From: Phormidium sp. FACHB-1136
GTDB lineage: Bacteria; Cyanobacteriota; Cyanobacteriia; Phormidesmidales; Phormidesmidaceae
Reading direction: 5' to 3'
DNA length: 64,000 nt
Assembly: GCF_014697375.1 (NCBI RefSeq)
Contig: NZ_JACJRS010000002.1
Span: 1-64,000 of the forward strand
Below the pieces are notes generated by a model that was not told where the DNA came from, made no database searches, and worked only from the letters and a program-made list of their open reading frames with translations. Position 1 is the stretch's first letter; every line of letters starts with the position of its first letter. A program made the translations under genes and the position numbers. Below are positions 1,578-22,018 of this stretch, one piece after another.

Positions 1578-2333
1578 ATGGAACTGAATCTTACCGGTAA
1601 GACAGCCTTGGTCACTGGTGCTAGCCGTGGCATTGGCTTGGCCATCGCCACGGCCTTGCATCGAGAAGGCTGTAGTGTTGCCCTCAACGCTCGACAGCTA
1701 AACCCTCTTTATCAGGCATGTAGTCAGTTGCCTGGCTCCCTCCCCATTGTCGGAGATGTATCCTGTTTTCCCGAAGCCCAGAAAGTTGTAGCAGAGGTGA
1801 TCGCAGCATGGGGGCGTCTAGATATTTTGATCTGTAATGTGGGTAGTGGTCAATCCGTTTCCCCTGGTACCGAAACTCCTGACGAGTGGCAACGAGTATT
1901 TGCCCTCAACCTCTGGAGTGCCACTAACATGGTGTCCGCTGCAACGGAAGCTCTAGTTCTGACCCAGGGAAGCATTGTTTGTATTTCCTCCATCTGTGGC
2001 CTAGAGGTCATCCCCGGTGCTCCAGTCACCTACTCCGCTGCTAAAGCGGCATTAAATGCCTATGTCCGAGGCATTGCCCGTCCCTTAGGTCAGAAAGGAG
2101 TACGCATTAATGCCATTGCACCGGGTAATATCCTGTGTGATGGCTCGGTCTGGGCTCGAAGGCTTCAGGAAGATGCGGCAGCGGTAACAAGCATGCTGAA
2201 TCGGGATGTGGCTCTGAGGCGATTGGGAACCCCGGAGGAGATTGCTAATTTGGTGTGTTACTTAGCCTCTCCCTACGCTGGCTTTGCCAGCGGTGCCCTA
2301 TGGACTCTCGATGGCGGTCAGGTGCGCCATTAG
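1578..2333 (+). CDS. SDR family NAD(P)-dependent oxidoreductase
   Basis: 251 residues, the usual length for classical short-chain dehydrogenases. The cofactor site TGASRGIG is at residues 13-20, CNVGSG takes the place of the NNAG motif around 86-91, the catalytic Ser is in CISSICG (137-138), and Tyr152 and Lys156 form the YxxxK pair. The C-terminal ASPYAGFASG and TLDGGQ are typical of FabG-like members. In this setting it more likely oxidises or reduces a sugar or ulosonic acid than a fatty-acyl-ACP; that is inference from the neighbours. It starts at an ATG 6 nt after the isomerase and is followed by a second SDR gene after about 70 nt. Confidence 0.85.
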   Translation: MELNLTGKTALVTGASRGIGLAIATALHREGCSVALNARQLNPLYQACSQLPGSLPIVGDVSCFPEAQKVVAEVIAAWGRLDILICNVGSGQSVSPGTETPDEWQRVFALNLWSATNMVSAATEALVLTQGSIVCISSICGLEVIPGAPVTYSAAKAALNAYVRGIARPLGQKGVRINAIAPGNILCDGSVWARRLQEDAAAVTSMLNRDVALRRLGTPEEIANLVCYLASPYAGFASGALWTLDGGQVRH

Positions 2334-2402
2334 CCCTGTAATTTGGGCAAACCCGGTGTTGGCCCCCAAATCAATCAACATTTTTGCAACCCAATAATTT
2401 TT

Positions 2403-3236
2403 ATGGTAACTCATCGATTTGACCTGACCCATAAATCCGCGCTGATCACCGGGGCCGCTGGCTTATTGGGGGTTGAACATGCCGCTGCCCTTCTGGAGTG
2501 TGATGCCACGGTAATCTTGACAGACATCTCGTGGGAAGCTTTGGACGGGGCCAAGCGCTACCTCAGTCAATGCTTTCCGGATGGACAGGTTCACACCTTG
2601 GTCATGGATGTGTCACGTTTAGCTTCAGTGCAAGCGACTCAAGCCCAGTTATCCCAGTTAGGAATAGGGGTCGATATACTGGTGAATAACGCGGCTATAG
2701 ACCCTAAGGTAATGGGTGATCAGGGGATGGTAGAAACCTCGCGTCTGGAAAACTTTCCTCGAGATCAATGGGATTTGCAAATTGCGGTGGGTTTAACAGG
2801 CGCGTTTCATTGCAGTCAGGTGTTTGGTGCGGAAATGGCCTGGCGTGGTCAGGGTGGGGTGATTCTCAACATTGCTTCTGACCTTTCTGTTCTTGCTCCC
2901 GACCAGCGACTCTACTGCAAAGAGGGACTAGCCGCCGATCAGCAAGCGGTAAAGCCCGTGACCTACTCAGTTATCAAGGCAGGTTTAGTGGGACTGACTC
3001 GTTATCTGGCTACCTATTGGTGCGATCAAGGTGTGCGCTGTAATGCTCTTTCACCAGGAGGGGTATTTAACCAACAGAGTGAAGAGTTTGTGAAGCGATT
3101 AAGCGGTTTGATCCCCCTGGGACGTATGGCTACTCGTGAGGAATATCGGGCGGCAGTACAGTTCCTGTGTTCGGATGCATCCCGATACATGACGGGACAG
3201 AATATTGTGCTCGATGGGGGGAGGGGTGTATGGTAA
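2403..3236 (+). CDS. SDR family oxidoreductase (PtmA-like)
   Basis: 277 residues from ATG 2403. The longer reading from a TTG at 2343 adds 20 unrelated residues and is rejected. TGAAGLLG at 16-23 binds the cofactor, NNAAID lies at 95-100, the catalytic Ser is in NIASDLS (about 159) and Tyr188 and Lys192 complete the active site. The C-terminus has the SDR tail MTGQNIVLDGG. The layout, with an insertion around DPKVMG and a long segment before the catalytic Tyr, resembles SDRs found beside CMP-nonulosonate and Kdo-like genes (PtmA type), so a sugar-modifying role is likely. Its stop codon overlaps the start of the next gene by 7 nt (ATGGTAA), indicating translational coupling. Confidence 0.8.
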   Translation: MVTHRFDLTHKSALITGAAGLLGVEHAAALLECDATVILTDISWEALDGAKRYLSQCFPDGQVHTLVMDVSRLASVQATQAQLSQLGIGVDILVNNAAIDPKVMGDQGMVETSRLENFPRDQWDLQIAVGLTGAFHCSQVFGAEMAWRGQGGVILNIASDLSVLAPDQRLYCKEGLAADQQAVKPVTYSVIKAGLVGLTRYLATYWCDQGVRCNALSPGGVFNQQSEEFVKRLSGLIPLGRMATREEYRAAVQFLCSDASRYMTGQNIVLDGGRGVW

Positions 3237-5059
3237 AGCGCCAATTGGTTACTACCGCATTAGAAGCAACCTGGGCTACCGATGGTCAGCCCATTCTCTT
3301 CCTTGGCGAGTGGTGTAAACTGTTTGACCGTAGGCATGTTTGGGAAAGTCTAAATCATGTTGTAGCTCCCTACCATTGGGATGATCGCAGCAAACTCTTC
3401 CAGGATTACACCACCCTCCAGGTAGTTTATGAAGAAGCCCTAAAAGCCCTTAGCCAGCAACTCAATCAACAGCATGGGGTTAATTACTCTCTTCGTTACT
3501 GGCGAATATTAATAGGGCCATGGTTGGGTTACTTTATTCAGATGGTGTTTGATCGCTGGTTCATGATCAAGACTGTTCTTGACACTGAGGAAATCTCAAA
3601 TATCCAGATTCTTAAACGTCAACTAGGGCAAGGTGTACCAAATGATATGAACGATTTTATTGCTTTGTTTGTTGATGATCATTGGAATGAAATGATCTAC
3701 GGACAAATTCTCCAGTTCATGACTGTGCCTGTAACAGTCATTGAAGCACCTCAAGCCTATGAGCAGTCGGATTACAATAGTCAAAGGAAAGCTATAAAAC
3801 TTAGCCATTACTTAAAAAAGTCTGTTGTCTCAATTGCATATCTATTATCTAGTGTTCTGACTCGCTCAGACGACTATTTCTTTATCACCTCCTATCTCAC
3901 ACGCCAGCAAGATCTTTTACTACAGCTCAAGTTAGGACAAATACCTAAGATCTGGCGTTCCTCTGCTTTGCCCAGGTTTGATTACTGTAAAGCTCAGCGA
4001 AACTGGTTGTTAGATCTACCTAAAAACCGACTTCGTGCTGATTGGCATCCATTCTGTCAGCTAATCAGTTTGCTTGTGCCTCAGAATATTCCAACGTCTT
4101 ATCTGGAGGGCTATAGGGACTTAGCTCAGAAGAGCAGTGAACTCCATTGGCCTCACCGCCCAAAAGCAATCTTCACGAGTAATAGCTATAGTTCTGACGA
4201 TCTATTCAAGATTTGGGCAGCTGAAAAGGTCGACAGAGGTATCCCTTTAATCGTAGGTCAACATGGTGGTAACTATGGTATGGCACTTTGGAGCTTTCAT
4301 GAAAGTCATGAAATTGATATATCTGATCAATATTTGACTTGGGGTTGGACTGAGCCACGGCAAAACAAACTTATCCCTATCGGAAACTTAAAAGGGTTTG
4401 GCTCCACTGTTATCAAGCCCAATAAATCGGGTAAGGCTTTATTAGTAGAGATGGTTGTGCCTCGTTATAGCTATCACATGTATAGTGTTCCGGTGTCTGC
4501 AGGACAGTGGCAAGCGTACTTTAATGATCAGGTGAGATTTGTGAAAACGCTGCCTGATGTTTTACGTAAAAGCTTACTAGTTCGATTGTTTAGCCATGAC
4601 TGGAAAGCAGGGCAAGTTTCTCGCTGGCAGAAACAGTTTCCAGGCATCGAACTGGATTTCGGGACTCGACCGCTGAAGGAGTTGTTGTGGCAAACCCGTC
4701 TTTACATTAGTACCTACAACGCTACTACCTACCTTGAATCCTTATGTCTCAACTTTCCTACTCTGATCTGCTGGAATCCTTTACATTGGGAATTACGAGA
4801 TGGGGTACGCCCCTACTTTGACCTACTCAAAGAGGTTGGCATATTTCATGAAACGCCAGAAAGCGCCGCCCAACAAATGGCGAAAATTTGGGACAATATT
4901 GACGATTGGTGGTTGGATCCTGAAACCCAAAACGCTAGGGAGGTTTTTTGTCATCGCTATGCCCGCATACCTCCTAATCCCCTGGACACCCTGGCCCAAC
5001 TCTTTCGGAGCATCGCTGAAAAACATAGTGACCCAGTTGAGTCAACCCGAGACTGCTAA
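3230..5059 (+). CDS. LIC12162-family putative transferase
   Basis: 609 residues from ATG 3230, which overlaps the upstream stop. The N-terminal pattern LVTTALEATW, LFLGEWCKL, APYHWDDRSKL and the stretch NYSLRYWRILIGPWLGYF are what I recognise as the LIC12162 family (TIGR04331), first noted in Leptospira O-antigen loci. The C-terminal half (GQHGGNYG, LVRLFSHDW, the late STYNATTYLESLCLNFPTL) resembles the KpsC/KpsS-like CMP-sugar-using transferases in general layout. I therefore infer that it transfers the CMP-activated acidic sugar predicted for this locus, but acceptor and donor are unknown. No signal peptide or obvious membrane segment is seen. Base composition is more AT-rich than the SDR genes before it. 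Confidence 0.7.
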   Translation: MVKRQLVTTALEATWATDGQPILFLGEWCKLFDRRHVWESLNHVVAPYHWDDRSKLFQDYTTLQVVYEEALKALSQQLNQQHGVNYSLRYWRILIGPWLGYFIQMVFDRWFMIKTVLDTEEISNIQILKRQLGQGVPNDMNDFIALFVDDHWNEMIYGQILQFMTVPVTVIEAPQAYEQSDYNSQRKAIKLSHYLKKSVVSIAYLLSSVLTRSDDYFFITSYLTRQQDLLLQLKLGQIPKIWRSSALPRFDYCKAQRNWLLDLPKNRLRADWHPFCQLISLLVPQNIPTSYLEGYRDLAQKSSELHWPHRPKAIFTSNSYSSDDLFKIWAAEKVDRGIPLIVGQHGGNYGMALWSFHESHEIDISDQYLTWGWTEPRQNKLIPIGNLKGFGSTVIKPNKSGKALLVEMVVPRYSYHMYSVPVSAGQWQAYFNDQVRFVKTLPDVLRKSLLVRLFSHDWKAGQVSRWQKQFPGIELDFGTRPLKELLWQTRLYISTYNATTYLESLCLNFPTLICWNPLHWELRDGVRPYFDLLKEVGIFHETPESAAQQMAKIWDNIDDWWLDPETQNAREVFCHRYARIPPNPLDTLAQLFRSIAEKHSDPVESTRDC

Positions 5060-5085
5060 ACTTGTGGGCTGTGTTAGCCGTTACT

Positions 5086-5150
5086 ATGCCTAAAGTAGCC
5101 TGAACACTTCTTTTGCAGATCAGTTTAAAAGATGACTTATGCCTAAAGTA
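5086..5150 (+). repeat. Duplicated start region of the dehydrogenase gene
   Basis: The 12-mer ATGCCTAAAGTA occurs at 5086-5097 and again at 5139-5150, where it is the true start of the dehydrogenase gene. The first copy gives only a five-codon reading frame ending in TGA at 5101-5103. It may be the scar of a small duplication and could act as a decoy start or leader. Function is unproven. Confidence 0.5.
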
Positions 5151-6122
5151 CTGATTACCACCATTCCATTTGCTGAACGGAACACCTTCCCCTTGGAAAT
5201 GTTGCAATCCAATGATATCGACTATGTGATTAACCCCCTCGGCAAGAAACTCACTGAAACCGAGTTAGCTGAGATGATCGGTGACTTCGATGCCTTGGTA
5301 GCCGGTACCGAGCCGATTACCGATTACGTCCTGTCCTGTGCTCCCCGGTTAAAGCATATTTCCCGAGTAGGGATTGGCCTCGACAGTGTGGATCTGTTAG
5401 CTGCTGAGCAACGGGGTATCAAGGTCTCCTACACCCCCGATGCCCCAGCTCCTGCAGTGGCAGAGCTTACCCTGGGGTTAATGCTATCTCTGCTCCGTTC
5501 CGTCCATGTGGCCAATACCCAAATGCACCAGGGCCAATGGAAACGTCACTTTGGTCGGCGTCTGGCGGAAATTACCGTTGGCATCATTGGTGTCGGTCGC
5601 ATTGGTACGCGGGTTCTACGCCGCATGCGTGGGTTTGGAACCCCCCGCATTTTGGTCAATGATATTCTGCCCAATTTAGAACTCAACCGTGAATTTAAGT
5701 TAGAGTGGGCCGCAAAAGAGGATATCTACCGTCAAGCAGACCTAATTAGTCTGCACGTCCCCCTCACCCCTCAAACCCACAACATGATTCGTAAAGAGCA
5801 TCTGCTGTCGATGAAAGCCGATGCCCTGATCGTCAATACATCCCGTGGTGGGATAATCAACGAACAAGATCTGCTAGAGGTTCTCCAATCGGGTCACCTG
5901 GGAGGAGCAGCTATTGATGTGTTTGATCAAGAGCCCTACCAGGGAGACTTGACCAAGATCGAACGCTGCCTACTGACCAGCCATATGGGCTCGATGTCAG
6001 TGGATTGTCGAACCCGCATGGAAATCGAAGCCACGGAGGAAGCGGTTCGCTTCTTAACGGGTCATCCGCTCAATAGTTTAGTGCCGGAGACGGAGTACAA
6101 CATACAACGCCGAAAACGCTAG
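5139..6122 (+). CDS. D-isomer-specific 2-hydroxyacid dehydrogenase (phosphoglycerate-dehydrogenase-like)
   Basis: 327 residues. A flavodoxin-like catalytic domain is split around an NAD-binding Rossmann domain with GVGRIG (151-156). The catalytic residues typical of the family are visible: Arg236 in NTSRGGIINE, Glu265 in DVFDQEP and His282 in LLTSHMGS. Upstream, RVGIGLDSVD matches the first conserved block. It is shorter than SerA enzymes that carry a C-terminal ACT domain, so it is probably not a regulated serine-pathway enzyme. In this operon it most likely interconverts a 2-hydroxy acid and a 2-keto acid used in making the unusual sugar; this is inference. It lies 12 nt upstream of an epimerase gene. 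Confidence 0.85.
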   Translation: MPKVLITTIPFAERNTFPLEMLQSNDIDYVINPLGKKLTETELAEMIGDFDALVAGTEPITDYVLSCAPRLKHISRVGIGLDSVDLLAAEQRGIKVSYTPDAPAPAVAELTLGLMLSLLRSVHVANTQMHQGQWKRHFGRRLAEITVGIIGVGRIGTRVLRRMRGFGTPRILVNDILPNLELNREFKLEWAAKEDIYRQADLISLHVPLTPQTHNMIRKEHLLSMKADALIVNTSRGGIINEQDLLEVLQSGHLGGAAIDVFDQEPYQGDLTKIERCLLTSHMGSMSVDCRTRMEIEATEEAVRFLTGHPLNSLVPETEYNIQRRKR

Positions 6123-6134
6123 GAGTTAGCCATC

Positions 6135-7004
6135 ATGGTGCAGCAGATTTGCGTAATTGGGGGAGCCGGATTCCTGGGTTCCCATGTCTGTGATCAACTC
6201 AGTGCCGCCGGACACCACGTGCGGATTTTTGATCGCATCCCATCCCCCTGGCTACAACCTCATCAGGAGATGGTGGTGGGGGATATTCTTGATCTATCGG
6301 CTCTGGAGTCGGCGATCAGCGGTTGCGATGTAGTCTATAATTTTGCAGCCCTAGCGGATCTTAACCAGGCCCTGGACAAGCCTCTCGAAACCATTCGCAT
6401 TAATATTCTGGGTAATGGTCATGCCCTAGATGCCTGCCACCGTCATAAGGTGAAGCGGTTTATCTATGCCAGCACGGTGTACGTCTACAGTCGGGAGGGC
6501 GGCTTTTACCGATGTAGTAAGCAATCTGCAGAGCACTACGTGGAAGAATATCAGCGGGTCTACGGTCTGGATTACACCATCCTTCGTTATGGTTCATTGT
6601 ATGGTCCACGATCAGACCTGACAAATGGGCTTTATCGTATAATTAAGCAAGCATTAGAGACTGGAGTAGTTCGTTATGAAGGTAGTACCGAGGCGCTTCG
6701 TGAGTATATTCATGTAGAAGATGCAGCTCGAGCCAGTGTAGTGGCTCTGGGTAAGGAATTTCGTAATGAGAGCGTAGTACTTACCGGTCAGGAACCAATG
6801 CGGGTAATGGACTTATTGAAGATGATAGCAGAGATTTTAGGGCTTAAGAAACCCGTAGAATTTGTTGAATCTCATCAACTGGGACACTATGTACGTACAC
6901 CTTATGCTTATCAACCTAAGCTAGGACGTAAATACATACCACCACTCCATGTGGATCTAGGTCAGGGGTTAATTCAGTTAATTCAAGAGATTAGTTCCGA
7001 TTGA
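6135..7004 (+). CDS. NAD-dependent sugar epimerase/dehydratase (extended SDR)
   Basis: 289 residues. The NAD-binding glycine motif GGAGFLG is at 9-15, STVYVY carries the Ser/Thr position, and Tyr125 with Lys129 (YRCSK) is the catalytic pair; LRYGSLYGPRSD and EYIHVEDAARA follow the order seen in the UDP-glucose 4-epimerase and dTDP-glucose dehydratase superfamily. The specific sugar nucleotide cannot be assigned. The first ~470 nt are visibly richer in G+C than the rest, so the gene may be a recombinant. It follows the dehydrogenase by 12 nt and is followed by an FkbM methyltransferase after about 50 nt. Confidence 0.8.
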   Translation: MVQQICVIGGAGFLGSHVCDQLSAAGHHVRIFDRIPSPWLQPHQEMVVGDILDLSALESAISGCDVVYNFAALADLNQALDKPLETIRINILGNGHALDACHRHKVKRFIYASTVYVYSREGGFYRCSKQSAEHYVEEYQRVYGLDYTILRYGSLYGPRSDLTNGLYRIIKQALETGVVRYEGSTEALREYIHVEDAARASVVALGKEFRNESVVLTGQEPMRVMDLLKMIAEILGLKKPVEFVESHQLGHYVRTPYAYQPKLGRKYIPPLHVDLGQGLIQLIQEISSD

Positions 7005-7053
7005 TGAAAAACATTTAAGAGTATCTAATTACAACTATAAAGGGAGTTAAGTA

Positions 7054-7896
7054 ATGCCAAACAGCCTGAAAAACCTAGTAAAATCAGCTATTAAACAAAC
7101 AACAAAGATAATAAGTAAAACAAAGGCCGGCAGCTATTTTTTTGACCTAGCCTTAAGTGAGTCCATGAATAGGATCACATCCATTGTATACAATGGGGTA
7201 GAGCTTAGTTTTGCCACGCCCAATCAACTAAATAGCTGGCGGATTGATACATTCTCAACAAAGGAACCAGAAACTTTAGAATGGATTGATACTCTTCCCG
7301 ATAATTGTGTATTGTGGGATGTGGGAGCGAATGTGGGGCTTTATTCTTGTTATGCTTGTGCAAAAAAAAGCTCTACTGTATACGCTTTTGAACCTTCTGT
7401 GTTCAATCTCGAGCTATTAGCAAGAAATTTATTTCTGAATAGACTAAGCCAAAAAGTTACTATTGTTCCTTTCCCTTTATGCGATAATCGCTCGATCGCT
7501 TCGATGCGGCTAACTAGTACTGAGTGGGGGGGGGCACTTTCTACCTTTGGTAAAGAGTTTGGTTGGGATGGTGGGGTGCTTAAACAAAATTTTGAGTTCC
7601 GAACACTAGGTCTGAGTATGGATGAAACAGTTGAACTGTTAAAAATTCCCGTTCCTGACTATATAAAAATGGATGTAGATGGGTTAGAACATTTTATTCT
7701 CAAAGGTGGATCCCGAACTTTGAGTCAGATTAAAGGCATTTTGATAGAGGTGAATGATGACTTTTATGAACAAGCGAGTACTTGTAGTAAATTATTGACT
7801 GACGCTGGATTGATTTTGAGAGAGAAAAGGCACTCTGAAATGTTTGCTGACTCGGCATTTGGAAATACATACAACCAAATTTGGACTCGACCTTGA
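7054..7896 (+). CDS. FkbM family methyltransferase with a 9-G tract
   Basis: 280 residues. SAM-binding motif I is DVGANVGLYS at 89-98, followed by the acidic loop YAFEPSVFN and the late block DYIKMDVDGLEHF, the hallmark order of the FkbM family. These enzymes usually O-methylate sugars or small molecules. The codons for EWGGA contain an uninterrupted run of nine G residues at 7526-7534, in frame here. Insertion or deletion of one G would truncate the protein soon after. The stop codon overlaps the TTG start of the next gene (TTGA at 7893-7896). A Lys-rich amphipathic N-terminus precedes the catalytic domain; the target sugar is unknown. Confidence 0.85.
   Translation: MPNSLKNLVKSAIKQTTKIISKTKAGSYFFDLALSESMNRITSIVYNGVELSFATPNQLNSWRIDTFSTKEPETLEWIDTLPDNCVLWDVGANVGLYSCYACAKKSSTVYAFEPSVFNLELLARNLFLNRLSQKVTIVPFPLCDNRSIASMRLTSTEWGGALSTFGKEFGWDGGVLKQNFEFRTLGLSMDETVELLKIPVPDYIKMDVDGLEHFILKGGSRTLSQIKGILIEVNDDFYEQASTCSKLLTDAGLILREKRHSEMFADSAFGNTYNQIWTRP
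7526..7534 (+). repeat. Poly-G tract, 9 G
   Basis: Nine consecutive G residues inside the first FkbM gene, the longest homopolymeric G run I found in the window. It lies in AT-rich DNA. Such tracts are classic slipped-strand mutation sites. Confidence 0.9.
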
Positions 7897-8537
7897 TTTC
7901 CCCTCGACAAATTATAAGCTCTGCTAATCTAGTTTTCTGGGACTTTGATGGCGTGATCAAAGAATCAGTTGACGTCAAAACCAGGGCCTTTGAAGCTTTA
8001 TTCTTGCCCCATGGTTCGAACATTGCAACGAAAGTGCGTCTACATCATGAAGCCAATGGTGGTGTTTCTCGGTTTGAAAAGATGCCTCTTTACCTCACCT
8101 GGGCTGGTATTGAGCCAACTGAGTCAACAGTGAAAGCATGGTGCGATCGCTTTTCAGATATGGTGTTACAAGCTGTAGTGGAGTCGCCATGGGTACCTGG
8201 CACTTTGGAATACCTTGAGGAGCATTACCAAAACCAGTATTTTGTACTAGTGACTGCGACTCCCCAGAGTGAAATTGAAATTATTTTGCACCGTCTTGGC
8301 ATTGGACATTTCTTTAGGAGTGTATTTGGATCACCTATTAGCAAAATTAAGGCGATCGCAATAGTTTTATCTCAACTGCACTTGTCTAGTGAAGACGCTT
8401 TGATGATTGGTGATGCCGAATCAGATTTAATAGCGGCAGAAAAAAATCAAATTTCTTTCATATTGCGCCGAACACCAATTAATCATTCATTACAAACACG
8501 TTATCGAGGACCACAATTAAGTAACTTGAGTCTATGA
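7893..8537 (+). CDS. HAD family hydrolase, probable sugar-phosphate phosphatase
   Basis: About 214 residues from TTG 7893, which overlaps the preceding stop codon; a TTG at 7881 is the alternative. HAD motif I is WDFDGVIKES with the two Asp at about residues 17 and 19, motif II is in LVTATPQSE, the motif III Lys in SPISKIKA and motif IV in MIGDAESDL. A helical cap sits between motifs I and II, as in beta-phosphoglucomutase and phosphoglycolate phosphatase-like enzymes. Placed directly before the aldolase (4-nt overlap) and upstream of the KdsB-like gene, it would fit the phosphatase step that KdsC performs in Kdo synthesis. This role is inference. Confidence 0.82.
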   Translation: MISPRQIISSANLVFWDFDGVIKESVDVKTRAFEALFLPHGSNIATKVRLHHEANGGVSRFEKMPLYLTWAGIEPTESTVKAWCDRFSDMVLQAVVESPWVPGTLEYLEEHYQNQYFVLVTATPQSEIEIILHRLGIGHFFRSVFGSPISKIKAIAIVLSQLHLSSEDALMIGDAESDLIAAEKNQISFILRRTPINHSLQTRYRGPQLSNLSL

Positions 8538-9310
8538 ACAGACAAATTGCGATACAGCAAATCCGAGAAAAATTGGAGTCCGGAGGTGTGTCGTTAGGAA
8601 GTTGGATGCAGATTCCTCACGCCTCGGTTGCTGAGATTATGGGACAAGCAGGTTACGATTGGGTTGCGGTGGATATGGAACATGGTAGTATTTCTATCCA
8701 TCAGCTGCCTGATTTGTTTCGTTCCTTAGAACTAGGAAACACACTACCACTAGCGCGTATTGCTGAAGGAACCACTAAGGAGTGTAAGCAAGTCCTGGAT
8801 GCAGGAGCAGGTGGTATTATTGTACCTATGGTTCAAACTGCGGAGCAGTTGTTAGGAGTGCGTAGTGCTTGTCGTTGGCCTCCAGGTGGAACTAGAGGTG
8901 TGGGATTTTCCCGTGCTAATCTATTTGGTGAGCATTTTGATACCTATAGAGAAGAAGCTCAAGCTCCTCTTTTGGTGGCGATGATTGAGCACCAGCAGGC
9001 TGTTATCAATCTTGATGAGATTTTGGATGTAGATGGGCTAGATGCAATCTTGATTGGACCCTACGATCTGTCAGCGTCGATGGGACTAACAGCCCAGTTT
9101 GAACACCCAGATTTTCGAGAAGCGATGGCCCAAATTCTGGAGAAGGCAACTTTAAGCAAAGTACCAGCAGGGGTGCACGTGGTGCACCCCTCAAAATCGG
9201 AACTTGAGCAACGCATAAGTGAAGGTTATCGCTTTCTTGCCTATTCTATTGATGGAGTGATGCTATCAGTAATATCGAAACGAGGAAGTAGTTCAAACTC
9301 TCATAAGTGA
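8534..9310 (+). CDS. HpcH/HpaI family aldolase (class II pyruvate aldolase)
   Basis: 258 residues. The start WMQIPHASVAEIM, WVAVDMEHG, PLARI, IIVPMVQTAEQ, the RGVGFSRA loop and LIGPYDLSASMG are the conserved blocks of 2-keto-3-deoxy-glucarate/rhamnonate and 4-hydroxy-2-oxoheptanedioate aldolases. They include the catalytic His/Arg region and the Glu and Asp that hold the divalent metal. The family condenses pyruvate with an aldehyde, reversibly, giving 2-keto-3-deoxy acids. Its ATG overlaps the HAD stop by four bases (ATGA), so both are co-translated. With the CMP-sugar synthetase downstream, the biosynthetic direction is the likelier one; this is inference. No KdsA- or NeuB-like PEP synthase was found. 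Confidence 0.85.
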   Translation: MNRQIAIQQIREKLESGGVSLGSWMQIPHASVAEIMGQAGYDWVAVDMEHGSISIHQLPDLFRSLELGNTLPLARIAEGTTKECKQVLDAGAGGIIVPMVQTAEQLLGVRSACRWPPGGTRGVGFSRANLFGEHFDTYREEAQAPLLVAMIEHQQAVINLDEILDVDGLDAILIGPYDLSASMGLTAQFEHPDFREAMAQILEKATLSKVPAGVHVVHPSKSELEQRISEGYRFLAYSIDGVMLSVISKRGSSSNSHK

Positions 9311-9311
9311 A

Positions 9312-10073
9312 ATGAATGAAATGGAACAAGAAACAAATAACTTTAACTTTGTCCCTATATGTGGTCAGTCTGAGGAACGTAATCGGGAATATCTAGCGAA
9401 CTTCTCGCCTGATAAATACTGGAAATCACTAGTAGTCAGGAACTCACCGATAATTTTTGATATTGGTGCACATAGGGGTGAATCAGTGCGGTTCTTTAAG
9501 GAAATCTTTCCCGATTCGATTGTTTATTCATTTGAACCAGATCCGGATAACTTTTCTGAACTTGAAGCGTTAGTACACTCTTGTTCATGGGGGGGGAAAT
9601 GTTTACCCATCAAGATGGGTATTAGTGAAAAAGAAGGTAAGCAGCTTTTCTATCGACAGAACATCTCTCATTTGGGCAGTTTAATTCCTATCAACATGCA
9701 GTCTCGAGACTCTTTAGGATATGCGGCTAAGGCAGAAAACAAGCCAATCGAGGTTGATATAACAACTGTAGATGCGTTTTGCAATCTTCATAGTATTAGT
9801 CGCATTGATATCTTGAAAATTGATGTACAAGGCCATGAAATAGGAGTGCTCACCGGAGCAATTGAAATGTTAGGTCAAACTAGTTGTTGTACAGTTGAGG
9901 TCTCATTCTACGACTTTTATGAAAAATCAACTTCTCTTCTTGAGGTTGAACAAATTATGTCGAAAGCTGGACATAAGATTTTCGATATTTCCAAGATCTC
10001 CAAAAATCCGAAAAATTTCCGTACAGACTGGGTTGAGTTAGTTTATTGCAACGGTCAATTAAGACAAGGGTAA
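9312..10073 (+). CDS. FkbM family methyltransferase with an 8-G tract
   Basis: 253 residues. Motif I is IIFDIGAHRGESVRFF, followed by YSFEPDPDNF and the family block IDILKIDVQGHEIGVL, then VEVSFYDFYEK. It starts 1 nt after the aldolase stop; a second in-frame ATG lies two codons later. The codons for SWGGKC contain eight consecutive G residues at 9589-9596, in frame here. It is a different subgroup from the FkbM protein at 7054 and shares little outside the motifs. It probably methylates a hydroxyl of the glycan or of a precursor; the substrate is unknown. Confidence 0.83.
   Translation: MNEMEQETNNFNFVPICGQSEERNREYLANFSPDKYWKSLVVRNSPIIFDIGAHRGESVRFFKEIFPDSIVYSFEPDPDNFSELEALVHSCSWGGKCLPIKMGISEKEGKQLFYRQNISHLGSLIPINMQSRDSLGYAAKAENKPIEVDITTVDAFCNLHSISRIDILKIDVQGHEIGVLTGAIEMLGQTSCCTVEVSFYDFYEKSTSLLEVEQIMSKAGHKIFDISKISKNPKNFRTDWVELVYCNGQLRQG
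9589..9596 (+). repeat. Poly-G tract, 8 G
   Basis: Eight consecutive G residues inside the second FkbM gene, in frame. A single-base slip would truncate the enzyme. See the matching tracts at 7526 and 10468. Confidence 0.9.
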
Positions 10074-10077
10074 TTTC

Positions 10078-11057
10078 ATGAAAGAAGAAGAAATAAGACC
10101 TAAAGCTATATTTGATGAGTATCTCCGATTAGCAATGAAAGATGCCCAAACCTATTTTGATGCAGTAAAAAGACAACAAATTATATGTCCTGCATGCGAA
10201 ACCCCGGGGGTTCCAGCCTTTGAAAAATCTGGTTTTGTTTATGAACAATGTCCAAACTGCCAGACCCTTTATGTCAGCCCTCGCCCCGTTGCATGCGCTT
10301 TCTCACGCTATTATCGTGAGTCTCCATCCTGTCATTACTGGGCAACAACATTTTATAAAGAAACTGCCCAAGCTCGCAAAGAAAAACTTTGGAAGCCAAA
10401 GGCACGTCAAATTTACGAAATTATGGCTAAATTCTGTCCCACTCCAAATCTTTCGGTTGTTGATATAGGGGGGGGTACGGACTGTTTGCAGAGGAGATTC
10501 GGGAATTAACACTACAAAATCCAATTGTGATTGAGCCTAGTCCACATTTAGCAAGTGTTTGTCGTAACAAAGATATATTAGTAGTAGAAAAATTTTTAGA
10601 GGACTTGACGCCAAAGGATTTACCAAATACTCATAAAGTTTTTGTGAGCTTTGAGTTGTTTGAACATCTTCATGATCCTGGTTTCTTCATGAGTTGCTTG
10701 TACTCTCTAATGTTGCCAGGTGACATTTTTATTTTCACAACCCTGTCTGGTTTGGGACTTGATATTCAAGTTCTTTGGCAAGAATCTAAATCAGTAACCC
10801 CACCCCATCATCTGAACTTTTTTAATCCTTACTCAATAAAACTTCTTTTAAAAAGAACTGGCTTTGACACTATCCAAATTACCACCCCGGGCAAATTGGA
10901 CATAGATATTTTACGCAACAATGAAGCACTGGTAAAAGATCGTTTTTGGAAAACACTACTAGCCATAAGCAGCGAGAACGAAAAACAGAGTTGGCAGAAC
11001 TGGATTGCTGAACAAGGTTATAGTTCGCATATGTGGGTAATTTGTCGAAAACCATAA
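10078..11057 (+). pseudogene. Class I SAM-dependent methyltransferase with N-terminal zinc ribbon, frameshifted at a poly-G tract
   Basis: Two reading frames make one protein of about 326 residues. The first (10078-10509) has a zinc-ribbon-like segment with CPAC and CPNC pairs and TLYVSPRP, then runs into SAM motif I at SVVDIGGG. At the eight G residues at 10468-10475 it leaves the right frame and stops at 10507-10509. The other frame continues correctly from 10476 (YGLFAEEIREL) through VIEPSPHLASVC, FELFEHLHDP and HHLNFFNPYS to the stop at 11057. Nine G residues would restore a full-length enzyme. The layout is typical of methyltransferases acting on sugar nucleotides in polysaccharide loci. 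The gene may be phase-variable, a fixed pseudogene or an assembly error. Confidence 0.85.
10468..10475 (+). repeat. Poly-G tract, 8 G, at the frameshift
   Basis: Eight consecutive G residues in the glycine-rich SAM-binding loop codons. The two halves of the methyltransferase are out of frame across this tract by exactly one missing base. Confidence 0.9.
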
Positions 11058-11096
11058 GATACTAATCACAAATCATTTTATTTTGCTCATATCATA

Positions 11097-11840
11097 ATGA
11101 AGATTTTAGCTATCATTCCTGCTCGCATGGGGAGCAGTCGATTTCCTGGCAAACCCATGGCCAAAATTCTCAGTAAGCCCATGATCGGTCATGTCTATGA
11201 ACGGGTAGCGAAGTCTCCATTACTTGACCTTACAGCAGTAGCAACCTGTGACCGGGAAATACACGAGTATGTAGGGTCCATAGGTGGTAAGTCTGTTATG
11301 ACTGCAAGTACTCATGAACGGGCATCAGATCGCTGTGCTGAGTCCTTATTAAAACTAGAGCAGGAACAAACTACCCGTTATGATATCGTAGTTATGGTGC
11401 AGGGGGATGAACCTATGACTCATCCAGACATGATTACGGAAGCAGTGAGCCCCATGCTGAAGGATCCTACTATTCAGGTAACCAATTTACTGGGGGAAAT
11501 CCGCAGTACGGAGGAGTTTGAAGATCGTAACTGCATCAAGGTAGTTTGTGATCTGAAGGGGTATGCCCTTTATTTCTCCCGAGAACCTATACCTACTCGG
11601 AGTAAAGTGAGAGATATACCCATGGGAAAGCAGGTTTGCATTATTCCATTCAGGCGTGACTTTTTGCTTCAATACACCCAGCTACCTCCCACCCCTTTGG
11701 AAATAGCAGAATCTGTGGACATGATGCGTGTGCTGGAACATGGATATAAGGTGCAGATGGTGCCAACAAAGCATGATAGTCATGCTGTAGATACCCCCGA
11801 AGATTTAGTTATAGTAGAACGGCTGATGCAACCTATATAA
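11097..11840 (+). CDS. KdsB-like cytidylyltransferase (CMP-3-deoxy-ulosonate synthetase)
   Basis: 247 residues, the usual KdsB length. The nucleotide-binding N-terminus IPARMGSSRFPGKPMAKI is conserved; VMVQGDEPM supplies the metal-binding Asp, and YFSREPIPTRS, ESVDMMRVLEHGYKV and HAVDTPEDL follow the KdsB order. The usual ASGTDR block is changed to HERASDR, so the substrate may differ from Kdo. It would link CMP from CTP to a 3-deoxy-2-ulosonic acid. The cyanobacterial lipid A core is generally thought to lack Kdo, so a capsule or O-chain sugar is more likely. It is the last intact gene of this block before IS-damaged DNA. Confidence 0.85.
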   Translation: MKILAIIPARMGSSRFPGKPMAKILSKPMIGHVYERVAKSPLLDLTAVATCDREIHEYVGSIGGKSVMTASTHERASDRCAESLLKLEQEQTTRYDIVVMVQGDEPMTHPDMITEAVSPMLKDPTIQVTNLLGEIRSTEEFEDRNCIKVVCDLKGYALYFSREPIPTRSKVRDIPMGKQVCIIPFRRDFLLQYTQLPPTPLEIAESVDMMRVLEHGYKVQMVPTKHDSHAVDTPEDLVIVERLMQPI

Positions 11841-12347: not shown

Positions 12348-13298
12348 CTAAATTTCGCTCAAACTCTCACATTTAAGGGTAAAAATCCGGTTGTTACATT
12401 GGTAGAAAAAGTTTATACTACAGCCACCTGTTTTACAATCTTTGAAGAATTGTTGAATTCCCCATCGACATCTATAGAGGCATAAAGTTTGTTTGAGATT
12501 TGGTAGATTCGTTAAGATATACCAAGGTTCTTTTGGTCCTTTATGACGATATTTTCTCTTCCAATAAACAGCGATATTAAATAACCCTAATTCATCTCCT
12601 TTACCACATTTAACTCCCTGATAAAACTTTGACATCCCCGGCTTAAATCCTTGGTTTTTAAGAACTTGATATTCAAGTCCTATTTCTTCTTGAAAATGAA
12701 GGTCTTTTTTCTGACGTAAAGCAAAGTAAACTCCTTGCTCATCAAGCCACTTAGCCAGTTTTGCACTATGAAATTCTCTATCTGCCAACACCACAATTCG
12801 ACATTTTTTCAACAACTTTATTGCTGTCTTTATCAATCTTTTTTGGGTTGATAAGTTACTATTTCCTACATGATTTAATGTTTCCCAATATAGTGGTAAG
12901 GCATGAGTACCCCATACCAATGTCACCATAAATATATTCCGTCCTTTCCACTGTGTTCTATCCAGTGCTACCATCCAGTAACCATATTTTTGATATTGTT
13001 TTTTATGAAAATAGCGGCGCTGTTCTCGATTCAATTGTTGTGGTGTTAACGATTGTCTAATCCAATATTTTATCAAGGGAAACCATAATAATTTTACGCA
13101 GAGTTTATTTATTCCTAAAAATCTTTGTAAATTACGTTTCCTGCTTTCATATTTAATTGGTTGGGGAAACAAACTCGCCAATTTTGACAGTTTTACTTGG
13201 CGATAAGCTTGTATCAATAATAACAATATCTCCAGTGTCAAATACTGCTGTTCACTCAAATGCTTTCGGAAAATTTTGTGATATGATTGTGGTAACAT
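12348..13298 (-). CDS. IS4-like (DDE) transposase, degenerate
   Basis: 316 residues on the minus strand, against the direction of the surrounding operon. The first catalytic Asp is in VALDRTQWKG, the second in VVLADREFHS, and the IS4 signature Y-x2-R-x3-E-x6-K appears as YRCRWGIQQFFKDCK. The position that should be Glu is Gln (codon CAA), so catalysis should fail. After KTGG the C-terminus diverges from what I expect in this family, suggesting a truncated or decayed end. Terminal inverted repeats were not identified with confidence. Its own start lies about 100 nt upstream of the next + strand gene. Confidence 0.8.
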   Translation of the reverse strand: MLPQSYHKIFRKHLSEQQYLTLEILLLLIQAYRQVKLSKLASLFPQPIKYESRKRNLQRFLGINKLCVKLLWFPLIKYWIRQSLTPQQLNREQRRYFHKKQYQKYGYWMVALDRTQWKGRNIFMVTLVWGTHALPLYWETLNHVGNSNLSTQKRLIKTAIKLLKKCRIVVLADREFHSAKLAKWLDEQGVYFALRQKKDLHFQEEIGLEYQVLKNQGFKPGMSKFYQGVKCGKGDELGLFNIAVYWKRKYRHKGPKEPWYILTNLPNLKQTLCLYRCRWGIQQFFKDCKTGGCSINFFYQCNNRIFTLKCESLSEI

Positions 13299-13401: not shown

Positions 13402-15210
13402 ATGCGCTTTTTCCTAACTCATGCTCGTTTCCCCAACTTTAATTCCAACTCCTGGAACGGAAGATGGATATATGTTGGCAGAAACTACCTCACAATGAAA
13501 ACTTGGGAGCAACGTCTAGTTGGAGAGCGTATCTCCTTAAAAGAATTGATTCAAAAAGAGTCCGTCAAACAGCGCCCCCCTATTCTTGACTGGATTGCTA
13601 GACAACGAGAAGCTAATGATGATTCTCTCCATTGGTGGATGACTGACTTGGCAGGACGTAACAACATGTCTAGTCGCTTTTTTGATGATATCATCCATAT
13701 TGCTGCGCTTAAGTCTTGGGTCGATCAAAATTTATCCTATCAGGATGAGATTTTAGTTATATGTGAAGATAGCTATCTGCTTGCAACGATTGAAACTAAC
13801 TTGAAGCCACTGATCAAAATCCGTTCTCTGCTCGGATGGCAGATAATTTTACTGTTGGAGTCTGGTTATTACATACTTCGAGGATGTGCGACTTTAGCTC
13901 GGCAAATCTTATGCTTCTGGAAGCATTATCACGCGGCGCGAGCATCTCGTCCATCTAATCTACAGACTCCTCATGGAGAATTGTATCTGATTCATCAATG
14001 CCTTGATGATAAAGCCTTGACTAAAGATGGGCCACTCGCTTGTCGCTATTTTACAGTTTTACCTCAATGGTTAGAGAAACAGGGTAAGCAAGTTTATCGC
14101 TTACCTTGGCTCTTCGATATCTCATTACCTTTGAATAAAGTTTATCAAAAACTTCGAGAATCCTCATGTCTTATTCCAGAAGATTGGTTAACCTGGAGAG
14201 ATTATGTAGTCGCCTTATGGGATGGATACAATACTACTTTGGCTATCAATCATTCTATAGATTATGAAAGTTTGTACATCAAATTATTAGTAGTTCGCGA
14301 ACGTTTTAAACAGTTAGCAACAGGATTTTCTGTATCTCAGTTCTTTCTTTATAAACCTGTGCTGGGAAACTGGGGAAATGAACTAACAGGCTTGATTTCG
14401 ATTACCCACTACGAGTCAATGCAACCTGAACGAGTTCAACCTTATTTTTGTCGGACTAACGAAAAATTAAACTCAAAATCCATTGGATATTATCATAGCT
14501 TAGTCACTAGAGACTATCTGGCCTATCATAATTTTCCAGGGGAAACTGGATCGTTAGTTTTTCCTGATGTAATAATTACCAGTGGAGATTTAGCTCGTTC
14601 GGTTCTAATTGATCAGGGTTTAGATCCAGAGAAAGTACAATCAGGTCCAGCTTTAAGGCAGCAGTTCACTCCACCCGTGAGTGATGACAGCCGTAGGGCT
14701 CTAGCTGTTCTACTGTCTTTAGATTTACAAGCAGTAACCGAAACCTTAGATAAACTATCCGACCATCTTGATTGGATTAATAGCAATTTCAAGATTCCTG
14801 TCATGATTAAACCGCATCCCATGATGCGGAAAGAAGTCATATTAACTCAAATGAACTGGACTAATTTGCCTCAAGGGTGGCAATGGTGTGATGACGAGAT
14901 GATAGATGTGTTAAGCAAAGCACGGTGCTGTGTCACTATGGCTACGGCCTCTATTTTTGATGTTTTGCTGTCAGGTTGTATTGCATTGCCTCTAGATCGT
15001 GAACTTACCACAGCTTGGAATAGTGCCGATTTTCTAGAGACAGAATTTCCAGTATTAAAGACAGTGCCTAAGGAATATCTGCGCCAGCGATTAGAAGAAA
15101 TTTTTGTCAGTTCTCGCCAATGGTATGACGAGGAATTTATGAGCATTCGCGAAAAACTTCAAGTTGGGTTAAATCCCGTTTCCGATTCAACCTTAGCTCT
15201 TTTTCTGTAA
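13402..15210 (+). CDS. Large putative surface-polysaccharide transferase
   Basis: 602 residues from ATG 13402; ATG 13495 is an alternative that would remove RFFLTHARF and WIYVGRNYLT, which look like conserved sequence. No family name can be given with certainty. Visible features are an Arg/Trp-rich N-terminal domain with SLHWWMTDLAGRNNMSSRFF, a short hydrophobic segment around IILLLESGYYILRGCATLA, and a C-terminal part with SIGYYHSL, VMIKPHPMM and MATASIFDVLLSGCIALPLD. The KPHP and late Ser/Thr-rich acceptor-like motifs recall capsule KpsC/KpsS and polysialyltransferase-like glycosyltransferases. A transferase role is inference. The IS4-like element sits directly upstream and may have altered its promoter. 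Confidence 0.55.
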   Translation: MRFFLTHARFPNFNSNSWNGRWIYVGRNYLTMKTWEQRLVGERISLKELIQKESVKQRPPILDWIARQREANDDSLHWWMTDLAGRNNMSSRFFDDIIHIAALKSWVDQNLSYQDEILVICEDSYLLATIETNLKPLIKIRSLLGWQIILLLESGYYILRGCATLARQILCFWKHYHAARASRPSNLQTPHGELYLIHQCLDDKALTKDGPLACRYFTVLPQWLEKQGKQVYRLPWLFDISLPLNKVYQKLRESSCLIPEDWLTWRDYVVALWDGYNTTLAINHSIDYESLYIKLLVVRERFKQLATGFSVSQFFLYKPVLGNWGNELTGLISITHYESMQPERVQPYFCRTNEKLNSKSIGYYHSLVTRDYLAYHNFPGETGSLVFPDVIITSGDLARSVLIDQGLDPEKVQSGPALRQQFTPPVSDDSRRALAVLLSLDLQAVTETLDKLSDHLDWINSNFKIPVMIKPHPMMRKEVILTQMNWTNLPQGWQWCDDEMIDVLSKARCCVTMATASIFDVLLSGCIALPLDRELTTAWNSADFLETEFPVLKTVPKEYLRQRLEEIFVSSRQWYDEEFMSIREKLQVGLNPVSDSTLALFL

Positions 15211-20984: not shown

Positions 20985-21174
20985 ACTAAAGTGGGATGTC
21001 TTTTGAAACCCATGCTATGCAAGGACTTTGGGTAACGAGGAATCAAGAATCATACTTTTAGAAACCAGTGCCCGACAGAAGTGGGTGAAAGGCTTGAAAC
21101 CTCGTGACCCGAAGGGGAAAAGGTGAGGTGACATGAGACGCTGGAATTGCATATCTCAGAGGCTTTGCCATGTC

Positions 21175-21188
21175 GGTAGTGCATTAAT
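21175..21188 (+). repeat. IS1 left terminal inverted repeat
   Basis: GGTAGTGCATTAAT, an exact reverse complement of 22094-22107. It marks the left end of the element. Confidence 0.8.
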
Positions 21189-21246
21189 GCCTGGGACGGA
21201 GGAAAATCAGACCACACCACCACGATACCGCAGGGAGGAGCAGCCC

Positions 21247-22018
21247 ATGACCATCGAAATGACCTGTTCAACCTGTGGGTCTCACGACATCTCCAAGAAC
21301 GGAACCAGCCATCGGGGGAAGCAAAATTACAAGTGTTGGGACTGTGGTCGTCAGTTCGTGGAAAATCCGCAATGGCAACCGAAACCGAAGGAGACGAAGG
21401 AACTGGTGAATCGGTTGTTACACGAAAAGATCCCGTTGCTCGGGCATTGCCCGAGCAACGGAGACCTCGGAGAGTTGGGTGCAAGGTCAGGCTAATGCGA
21501 CCTACGAGGCGGTGCCCCAAGTCGCAGAGGTTGTCCCCAAACCGAAAGGCTCTCTGAAGGTGCAGATGGATGAACTGTGGTCGTTTATGGATCATAAAGG
21601 GAACCAGCAATGGGTCTGGCTCGCCATTGATGCCGAGACCCGGGAAGTGATTGGGTGTCACATCGGTAACCGTTCTCGGGCTTCAGCGAAGGCACTCTGG
21701 GAATCCCTGCCAGCGGTGTATCGCCAATGCGCCAAAGTCGATACGGGCTTCTGGGAAGCCTATGTCACGGTGATTCCGAGCAAACGTCATGAGGCCGTGG
21801 GTAAAGACAGTGGACTGACCAGTTACATCGAGCGCTTGAACAACACCCTGAGGCAGCGAGGCGCACGACTGGTGAGAAAGACCCTGTCGTTCTCCAAGAA
21901 GCTCGAGAATCACATCGGGGCCATCTGGTTGTTCATCCATGATTACAATCACAGCCTCCGGGAGAAGTTGGCCAAGCAAGGTCATCCGCTCTTGATAGTC
22001 CTATTTCGTACAGGCTAG
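21247..22018 (+). pseudogene. IS1 transposase, frameshifted and missing a catalytic Asp
   Basis: The N-terminal zinc-finger part starts at ATG 21247 (CSTCGSHDISKNG, CWDCGRQFVENPQW) and runs to a stop at 21493-21495. The correct continuation, GIARATETSESWVQG, is in another frame that carries the catalytic domain (MDELWSFMDHKGNQQWVW, SYIERLNNTLRQRGARL) to 22018. One extra G in the GGG at 21442-21444 explains the shift. In addition, the block normally reading TDxWEAY is DTGFWEAY, so the second Asp of the DDE triad is Gly. The first Asp and the Glu remain. Known IS1 elements use programmed frameshifting, but no slippery heptamer is seen here. Confidence 0.8.
21434..21460. repeat. 27-nt perfect palindrome at the IS1 frameshift
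   Basis: The 13-mer CGTTGCTCGGGCA (21434-21446) is followed by one T and then its exact complement TGCCCGAGCAACG (21448-21460). It covers the site where the transposase leaves frame. With one G less in the left arm the arms would no longer match perfectly. Confidence 0.9.

Follow-up and report, generated by a model that had tools for sequence, protein, structure and literature searches.

Described routes to 3-deoxy-D-manno-oct-2-ulosonic acid (Kdo) and to the nonulosonic acids build the carbon chain with KdsA or NeuB, which condense phosphoenolpyruvate (PEP), and continue with a KdsC-type phosphatase of the haloacid dehalogenase (HAD) family and an activating transferase that uses cytidine triphosphate (CTP), either KdsB or NeuA. 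Class II aldolases of the HpcH/HpaI family, by contrast, are represented by catabolic enzymes such as HpaI, GarL and RhmA, while SwHKA, a hydroxyketoacid aldolase of the same family, accepts hydroxypyruvate and carries Phe210 in place of a conserved leucine, as described in a passage of PMC10099721. The locus considered here lies in the first 64,000 bases (the window, that is, the whole stretch analysed) of contig C112 from the cyanobacterium Phormidium sp. FACHB-1136, whose genome comprises 5,983,598 bases in 260 contigs. Like the Kdo and nonulosonate systems, it places a carbon-joining enzyme, a HAD enzyme and a CTP transferase in one operon. It differs from them in having a class II aldolase instead of the PEP synthase, a HAD enzyme that matches models other than those of KdsC, and two additional genes, encoding a 2-hydroxyacid dehydrogenase resembling phosphoglycerate dehydrogenase (PGDH) and an extended short-chain dehydrogenase/reductase (SDR). 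Our best explanation, to which we assign a probability of roughly 0.6, is that PGDH, SDR, HAD phosphatase, HpcH/HpaI aldolase and a variant of KdsB form a single horizontally spread cassette for a 2-ulosonic acid activated with cytidine monophosphate (CMP), the acid being neither Kdo nor a NeuB product.

In the pathway that we propose, the aldolase is likely the carbon-joining step: it would join a three-carbon oxo-acid (pyruvate, or hydroxypyruvate furnished by the dehydrogenase) to an aldose, which may be phosphorylated. Removal of the phosphate by the HAD enzyme would follow, after which the KdsB variant would make the CMP donor and a transferase of the glycosyltransferase B (GT-B) fold, belonging to the TIGR04331 or TIGR04326 family, would add the sugar acid to a surface polysaccharide. 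What the comparisons show is the cassette itself, the parallel divergence of its members, an altered sugar domain, conservation of catalytic residues and carriers that lack a Kdo pathway; we infer how the steps are ordered, that they run towards synthesis, which substrates they use and what donor the transferase takes.

All genes of the cassette occupy the plus strand. They encode the PGDH-like dehydrogenase (5139-6122; PF02826, 177.1 bits), the epimerase/dehydratase-like SDR (6135-7004; PF01370, 156.2 bits), the HAD phosphatase (7881-8537, with a TTG start; PF13419, 46.1 bits), the aldolase (8534-9310; PF03328, 120.8 bits against a cut-off of 25) and the KdsB-like cytidylyltransferase (11097-11840; PF02348, 156.9 bits, cut-off 22.6). 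They are preceded by an LIC12162-family transferase (3230-5059; TIGR04331, 511.1 bits, cut-off 225). An initial annotation of this DNA had named these genes, together with an isomerase and further SDRs, as a set at 3230-11840 in which the HAD and aldolase genes overlap by four nucleotides. Every gene it named is present on the plus strand with a match to the expected family, and the overlap falls at 8534-8537. The interval holds for the genes from the transferase to the KdsB-like protein; the isomerase (675-1571) and a pair of short SDRs (1578-3236) come before its start.

Comparative analysis indicates that this arrangement is far from unique. An alignment of the KdsB-like proteins from the window and from a second genome, G163, served as the query in a scan of genome contigs that yielded 298 relatives, of which the best 80 were kept (L-numbers denote loci and G-numbers genomes, G000 being the window's own). 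By their record titles, the 80 loci belong to Proteobacteria of several classes, Chlorobi, Nitrospira, Nitrospinota, Chloroflexi, Bacteroidia, Neomarinimicrobiota, Syntrophomonas, Saganbacteria, Phycisphaerae, Elusimicrobia, Treponema, Prochlorococcus and Actinomycetes, many of them binned metagenomes. Within 7 kb of the variant kdsB, the aldolase was found in 65 loci, the SDR in 63 (distant matches included), PGDH in 61 and the HAD phosphatase in 50; all four partners accompany it in 44. Not one of the four was found at 27 canonical KdsB loci, which come without exception from the window's phylum and in some cases are truncated where a contig ends; a KdsC-like HAD gene occurs at five of them and an FkbM gene at one. 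A stricter cut (at least 30% identity and at least 70% coverage, within 8 kb) left the aldolase in 63 of the 80, PGDH in 58, the SDR in 53, the HAD phosphatase in 47 and all four in 41, several of the losses falling at contig ends.

The partners have also diverged together. Among KdsBs less than 88% identical, pairwise distances correlate with those of KdsB at r = 0.79 for the aldolase (n = 52), 0.76 for HAD (38), 0.61 for SDR (44) and 0.50 for PGDH (48), each with 0 of 500 permutations, in a statistic that ignores species relatedness. The order PGDH-SDR-HAD-HpcH-KdsB is shared by the window and many close relatives; Nitrosomonas-type loci have KdsB-HpcH-PGDH-SDR-HAD. HAD, aldolase and KdsB-like genes are directly consecutive in G163, where a separate NeuB (PF03102) is encoded on the opposite strand of the same stretch. 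The distribution is patchy: a relative of the aldolase at E 1e-40 occurs in three of 386 genomes of the window's phylum, including the window's own, and the G163 KdsB-like protein, at E 1e-50, found a match in G163 only among 300 genomes of its family. From this patchiness we infer that the gene set spread horizontally. Among plasmids, the KdsB query drew 45 records, all below 60% identity; the 20 matches listed are 36-40% identical and named kdsB where annotated. Among viral contigs, the aldolase query matched one stretch, which is not a relative. A search of the titles and abstract beginnings of open-licence papers returned no description of this gene set, which is not a claim that it is absent from print. 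The cassette is real and conserved, has probably gone unrecognised until now, and provides a defined gene set for a CMP-sugar in organisms whose records carry, among others, the names Nitrosomonas, Prochlorococcus and Chlorobium.

The cytidylyltransferase itself provides the second line of evidence. KdsB, or CMP-Kdo synthetase, is a member of the CTP_transf_3 fold family; a passage of PMC3149649 sets out the roles of its CTP-loop and metal residues and places Kdo binding in the C-terminal domain, residues 100-210, of the Aquifex enzyme. For comparison, 82 variant and 36 canonical rows, with matches shorter than 225 columns or containing stops excluded, were deduplicated to 81 and 29 (L082 and L104, two of the 80 loci, are not among the 81). 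In E. coli numbering, Arg10, Arg15, Lys19, Arg78, Gln98, Asp100 and Arg157 are kept in every variant and every canonical row. Asp235, the second metal-site aspartate, is retained by all 81 variants and by 22 of the 29 canonical rows, the other seven of which carry Asn. Four residues invariant in the 29 canonical proteins are replaced in the variants: His181 by Gln (81/81), Tyr185 by Ile (79/81), Glu210 by Asp (81/81) and Gln211 by Met (81/81). All four we take to be direct Kdo contacts in the E. coli enzyme. Further alterations affect Arg164, Gly75, Thr125, Asn96 and Asp50. The initial annotation had drawn attention to a changed HERASDR block and suggested that it fits a different substrate. 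A Gly-to-Ala/Cys change in this block is common to all 81 subfamily members, and the changes at invariant positions of the sugar domain agree with the suggestion. The strict KQVxxIP string is present in all but seven variant rows.

In a tree of 41 variants (the window's protein with 40 randomly chosen others) and the full set of 29 canonical proteins, midpoint-rooted for drawing, a branch supported at 100/99 separates the variants from the rest; some long branches meet in this tree, E. coli KdsB among them. Judged by these alignments, the variant is a distinct clade with a changed sugar domain and retained CTP and metal sites, and it differs from KdsB in its partner genes as well. The family models can nevertheless be read in favour of an ordinary second CMP-Kdo synthetase. 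The window protein exceeds the cut-offs of two of the five NCBIfam KdsB models, NF009905 (301.8 bits, cut-off 255) and NF003952, both subfamily models named Kdo cytidylyltransferase, and each of 20 sampled variants is matched by every one of the five with an E-value of 1e-30 or lower, the cut-offs having been applied to the window protein only. It falls below the other three, however, including both equivalogs (TIGR00466, 148.4 against 155.2; NF003948, 172.8 against 281), and the changed residues speak against the same function. The whole subfamily, whose sampled members all match these models named for Kdo, probably makes something else.

The carrier genomes bear on the same question. In 52 of them (50 of those contributing the 80 loci, together with G000 and G163), KdsA above cut-off was found in 37 and the Kdo-transferase domain of WaaA in 35. 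Thirteen have neither (G000, G163, G653, G657, G658, G666, G667, G671, G673, G674, G675, G676 and G677), with completeness given for G000 and G163 only, such that some of the other absences may be gaps. Three of the 13 are Nitrosomonas genomes (G671, G673 and G675, with loci L103, L110 and L118), one titled as a chromosome, in which the cassette genes are present. G630 and G649 possess the Kdo transferase and no KdsA above cut-off. Of nine genes for Kdo2-lipid A, Nitrosomonas europaea has lpxK alone, according to a passage of PMC3087551, which also describes the lipopolysaccharide of cyanobacteria as devoid of Kdo. Taken with the 13 carriers and the altered residues, these reports make an ordinary second CMP-Kdo synthetase scarcely credible. 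The co-occurrence with an absence of kdsA that the initial annotation proposed to look for is seen in the 13 genomes; the 37 that have KdsA carry no weight either way.

The initial annotation saw no KdsA or NeuB in the window, and none appears among the open reading frames (ORFs) listed for 1-34000. Elsewhere in the genome, TIGR01362 finds no KdsA, and the single PF00793 match reads as 3-deoxy-D-arabino-heptulosonate 7-phosphate (DAHP) synthase, but one NeuB (PF03102, above cut-off) does exist, on a different contig, C258. This protein opens another explanation, according to which NeuB makes the acid, the window's KdsB-like enzyme activates it and the aldolase is unrelated. In its favour, the NeuB gene stands in one run (52-2127; L004) with a HAD gene, whose product matches Kdn and Kdo phosphatases below cut-off, and an SIS-domain gene (PF13580), and the window's KdsB-like gene is the sole PF02348 match found in the genome. 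Yet NeuB appears to be interrupted, since its frame ends at contig base 52, inside a 75-base stretch with 17 further identical copies (18 in total), nine of those 17 at base 1 of a contig, and its alignment stops at position 274 in one NeuB model of 329 and at 268 in another of 327. NeuB-type matches, moreover, occur within 7 kb of the variant kdsB in just three of the 80 loci, and in 11 across the whole DNA examined for each; queried with the C258 protein, nine of the 80 gave matches of only 30-42% identity, the best (42%) of partial length. KdsA had no match anywhere in the DNA examined for the 80. We considered whether C258 and the window's contig are neighbours, with the NeuB run reading off the contig end, and dropped this unproven idea because the last 600 bases of one and the first 700 of the other have no 14-base word in common, the ends belong to different repeats, and the C258 NeuB has just the distant matches given above among the 80 loci. 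A NeuB origin of the acid is accordingly very improbable in our estimation. Repeats also stand at the start of many other contigs of this genome.

The aldolase has in common with HpaI, GarL and RhmA the family and the catalytic His, Arg, Glu and Asp: His50, Arg75, Glu152 and Asp178 are invariant in 65 of 65 cassette aldolases, and passages of PMC8560999 and PMC11194214 cover two residues of HpaI, Arg70 and His45, as well as the Glu and Asp with which SwHKA binds its metal. It differs from the catabolic enzymes in its location within polysaccharide operons and in the donor pocket, where all 65 carry His215 at the position of a leucine (Leu216 in RhmA, Leu212 in HpaI; Phe in the PDB protein 4mf4). 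Five non-cassette comparators show Leu (RhmA), Phe (an enzyme from the window's phylum) or, in three cases, a gap at this position; with that reservation for position 215, His215 and Phe135 remain as residues specific to the cassette. Tyr177, which had seemed specific in comparison with two E. coli enzymes, was dropped once it was found in three non-cassette homologues.

According to a passage of PMC10099721, aromatic residues replacing the conserved leucine of SwHKA favour hydroxypyruvate, and one of PMC7610986 reports HpcH enzymes that take hydroxypyruvate with glyceraldehyde or erythrose. The residues themselves differ (Phe210 in SwHKA, His in the cassette enzymes), and we regard the two positions as presumably equivalent. 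Because His215 takes the place of a donor-pocket leucine and a 2-hydroxyacid dehydrogenase belongs to the cassette, hydroxypyruvate is a candidate donor. The pyruvate donor and the '3-deoxy' product named in the initial annotation are consequently assumptions, and a 3-hydroxy product is conceivable. A tentative extension, which we would not expect to hold but take seriously, is that PGDH supplies hydroxypyruvate (directly or via phosphohydroxypyruvate) and the His215 aldolase adds it to an aldose, giving a non-deoxy, Ko-like 2-ulosonic acid and hence a new CMP-sugar. Were this true, an aldol route unrelated to KdsA and NeuB would extend over many phyla, including bacteria that lack the Kdo pathway. 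More generally, the cassette hints at a natural role for HpcH aldolases in synthesis instead of breakdown.

The remaining cassette enzymes are likewise conserved at positions that we take to be catalytic. Arg236 and Glu265 of the dehydrogenase occur in 59 of 59 cassette homologues and His282 in 58; together these are presumably its catalytic triad. The SDR retains Y125xxxK129 in 54 of 54, while the HAD phosphatase has Asp21 and Asp23 in 47 of 48 and Lys155, Asp178 and Asp182 in all 48. The nearest solved relatives of PGDH are phosphoglycerate dehydrogenases and glyoxylate or glycerate reductases. The HAD phosphatase matches HAD_2 and phosphoglycolate-phosphatase models and not those of KdsC.

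A different division of labour is suggested by loci that depart from the common pattern. In the strongest competing scheme, the 2-oxo group would come from PGDH. The SDR, helped at some loci by a 6-phosphogluconolactonase, would oxidise an aldose phosphate to an aldonate, and PGDH would oxidise its C2; dephosphorylation by the HAD enzyme and activation by the KdsB variant would follow, with the aldolase in a side role. The dehydrogenase, with its conserved triad, adjoins the variant kdsB in the aldolase-less L113, L119, L120 and L123 and lies one gene away in L084 (contig ends truncate L084, L119 and L120). Nineteen loci, 16 of Nitrosomonas type plus L053, L056 and L070, contain an ORF cluster for 6-phosphogluconolactonase, the L053 protein scoring 151.7 bits with TIGR01198, above cut-off. 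Set against this, the divergence of KdsB is tracked best by the aldolase (r = 0.79, compared with 0.50 for PGDH), and a PDB search places the SDR closer to UDP-sugar epimerases than to uronate dehydrogenase. We judge a PGDH-made 2-oxo group unlikely, though still deserving of attention because aldolase-less loci keep PGDH beside kdsB and another group lacks both SDR and HAD. In L084 and L113 (L119 falling in the same ORF cluster), a single frame close to PGDH and the variant kdsB encodes, as read from the sequence, a glycosyltransferase-2-like part and after it a zinc alcohol-dehydrogenase-like part.

Several observations weigh against an aldolase-based cassette as the general explanation. No aldolase was found within at least 7 kb on both sides of the variant kdsB in L088, L101, L113, L123 and L126, and the position of PGDH beside kdsB in aldolase-less loci belongs here as well. 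Five loci (L078, L079, L090, L093 and L097) have genes for an SIS-domain isomerase-like protein and a Gfo/Idh oxidoreductase, without SDR and HAD; family scans within this group were confined to L079, and L079 and L090 contain in addition an AroB-like gene (TIGR04425 in L079). In the 37 carriers with an ordinary KdsA the variant is an extra gene and discriminates nothing, the canonical control loci represent one phylum, and shared species ancestry may enter the distance correlations. The aldolase could, furthermore, run in the direction of cleavage, and the roles given to the dehydrogenase and the SDR are provisional. The proposal in the initial annotation that the aldolase replaces a PEP synthase gains support from the recurrent cassette, with its correlated divergence and with NeuB nearby in only three of 80 loci, and fits less well the variant loci where no aldolase was found in the DNA examined.

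On the transferase side, a structural model of the LIC12162-family protein adopts a GT-B fold (predicted local distance difference test, pLDDT, 84.4), for which Foldseek returned TagF first, with WaaA and other GT-B enzymes among the matches. In 18 of the 80 loci, members of one ORF cluster lie 3' of kdsB; the L049 member reaches 531.7 bits with TIGR04326 and is likewise modelled as GT-B (pLDDT 87.4). These predicted folds name no donor for either enzyme, and a Pfam scan of five transferases returned no family. As TagF is a CDP-glycerol enzyme, the KdsB variant might instead activate a non-ulosonic hydroxy acid or acid phosphate, and a TagF-like transferase would then move the resulting unit, linked to CMP or CDP. 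The replacement of canonical C-terminal-domain invariants beside intact CTP and metal residues would suit such a substrate, as would the hydroxyacid dehydrogenase neighbour in 61 of 80 loci. TagF is, however, one among many GT-B matches that include WaaA, and a phosphatase with an aldolase is better suited to a sugar acid; we consider this alternative improbable.

The initial annotation overlooked two FkbM-type methyltransferases, a split methyltransferase and the position of the contig start inside a repeat. The first FkbM gene (7054-7896, plus strand, overlapped by the HAD gene; PF05050, 55.6 bits) is often found inside the cassette, with a match of its type near the variant kdsB in 32 of 80 loci. 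The second (9312-10073, plus strand; PF05050, 79.6 bits) belongs to an ORF cluster of six loci, the window among them. Between it and kdsB, a methyltransferase at 10078-11057 (plus strand) is divided between two ORFs that differ in frame (10078-10509 and 10527-11057); since its L049 homologue is a single 325-residue frame (PF13489), the window copy is frameshifted.

Upstream of the transferase, and likewise on the plus strand, lies a second module consisting of a TIM-barrel isomerase-like protein (675-1571; PF01261, 74.2 bits) and two short-chain dehydrogenases, SDR1 (1578-2333; PF13561, 170 bits) and SDR2 (2343-3236; PF13561, 136.2 bits). The isomerase-like gene followed by SDR2 and an LIC12162 gene recurs in L073, L085, L089 and L113, and the ORF cluster of SDR1 comprises L073, L085, L089 and the window. 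The contig begins with the end of a repeated element (1-108), of which the genome holds 14 further copies at 97-100% identity, and genes upstream of the window may consequently be missing. Downstream of kdsB, a 602-residue protein (13402-15210, plus strand) scores 20.4 bits with TIGR04326, a surface-carbohydrate family whose cut-off is 250; this is below family level and allows a remote relationship at most. Transposase-like ORFs, identified by reading their sequences, stand within the polysaccharide region at 12348-13298 (minus strand) and 21050-22018.

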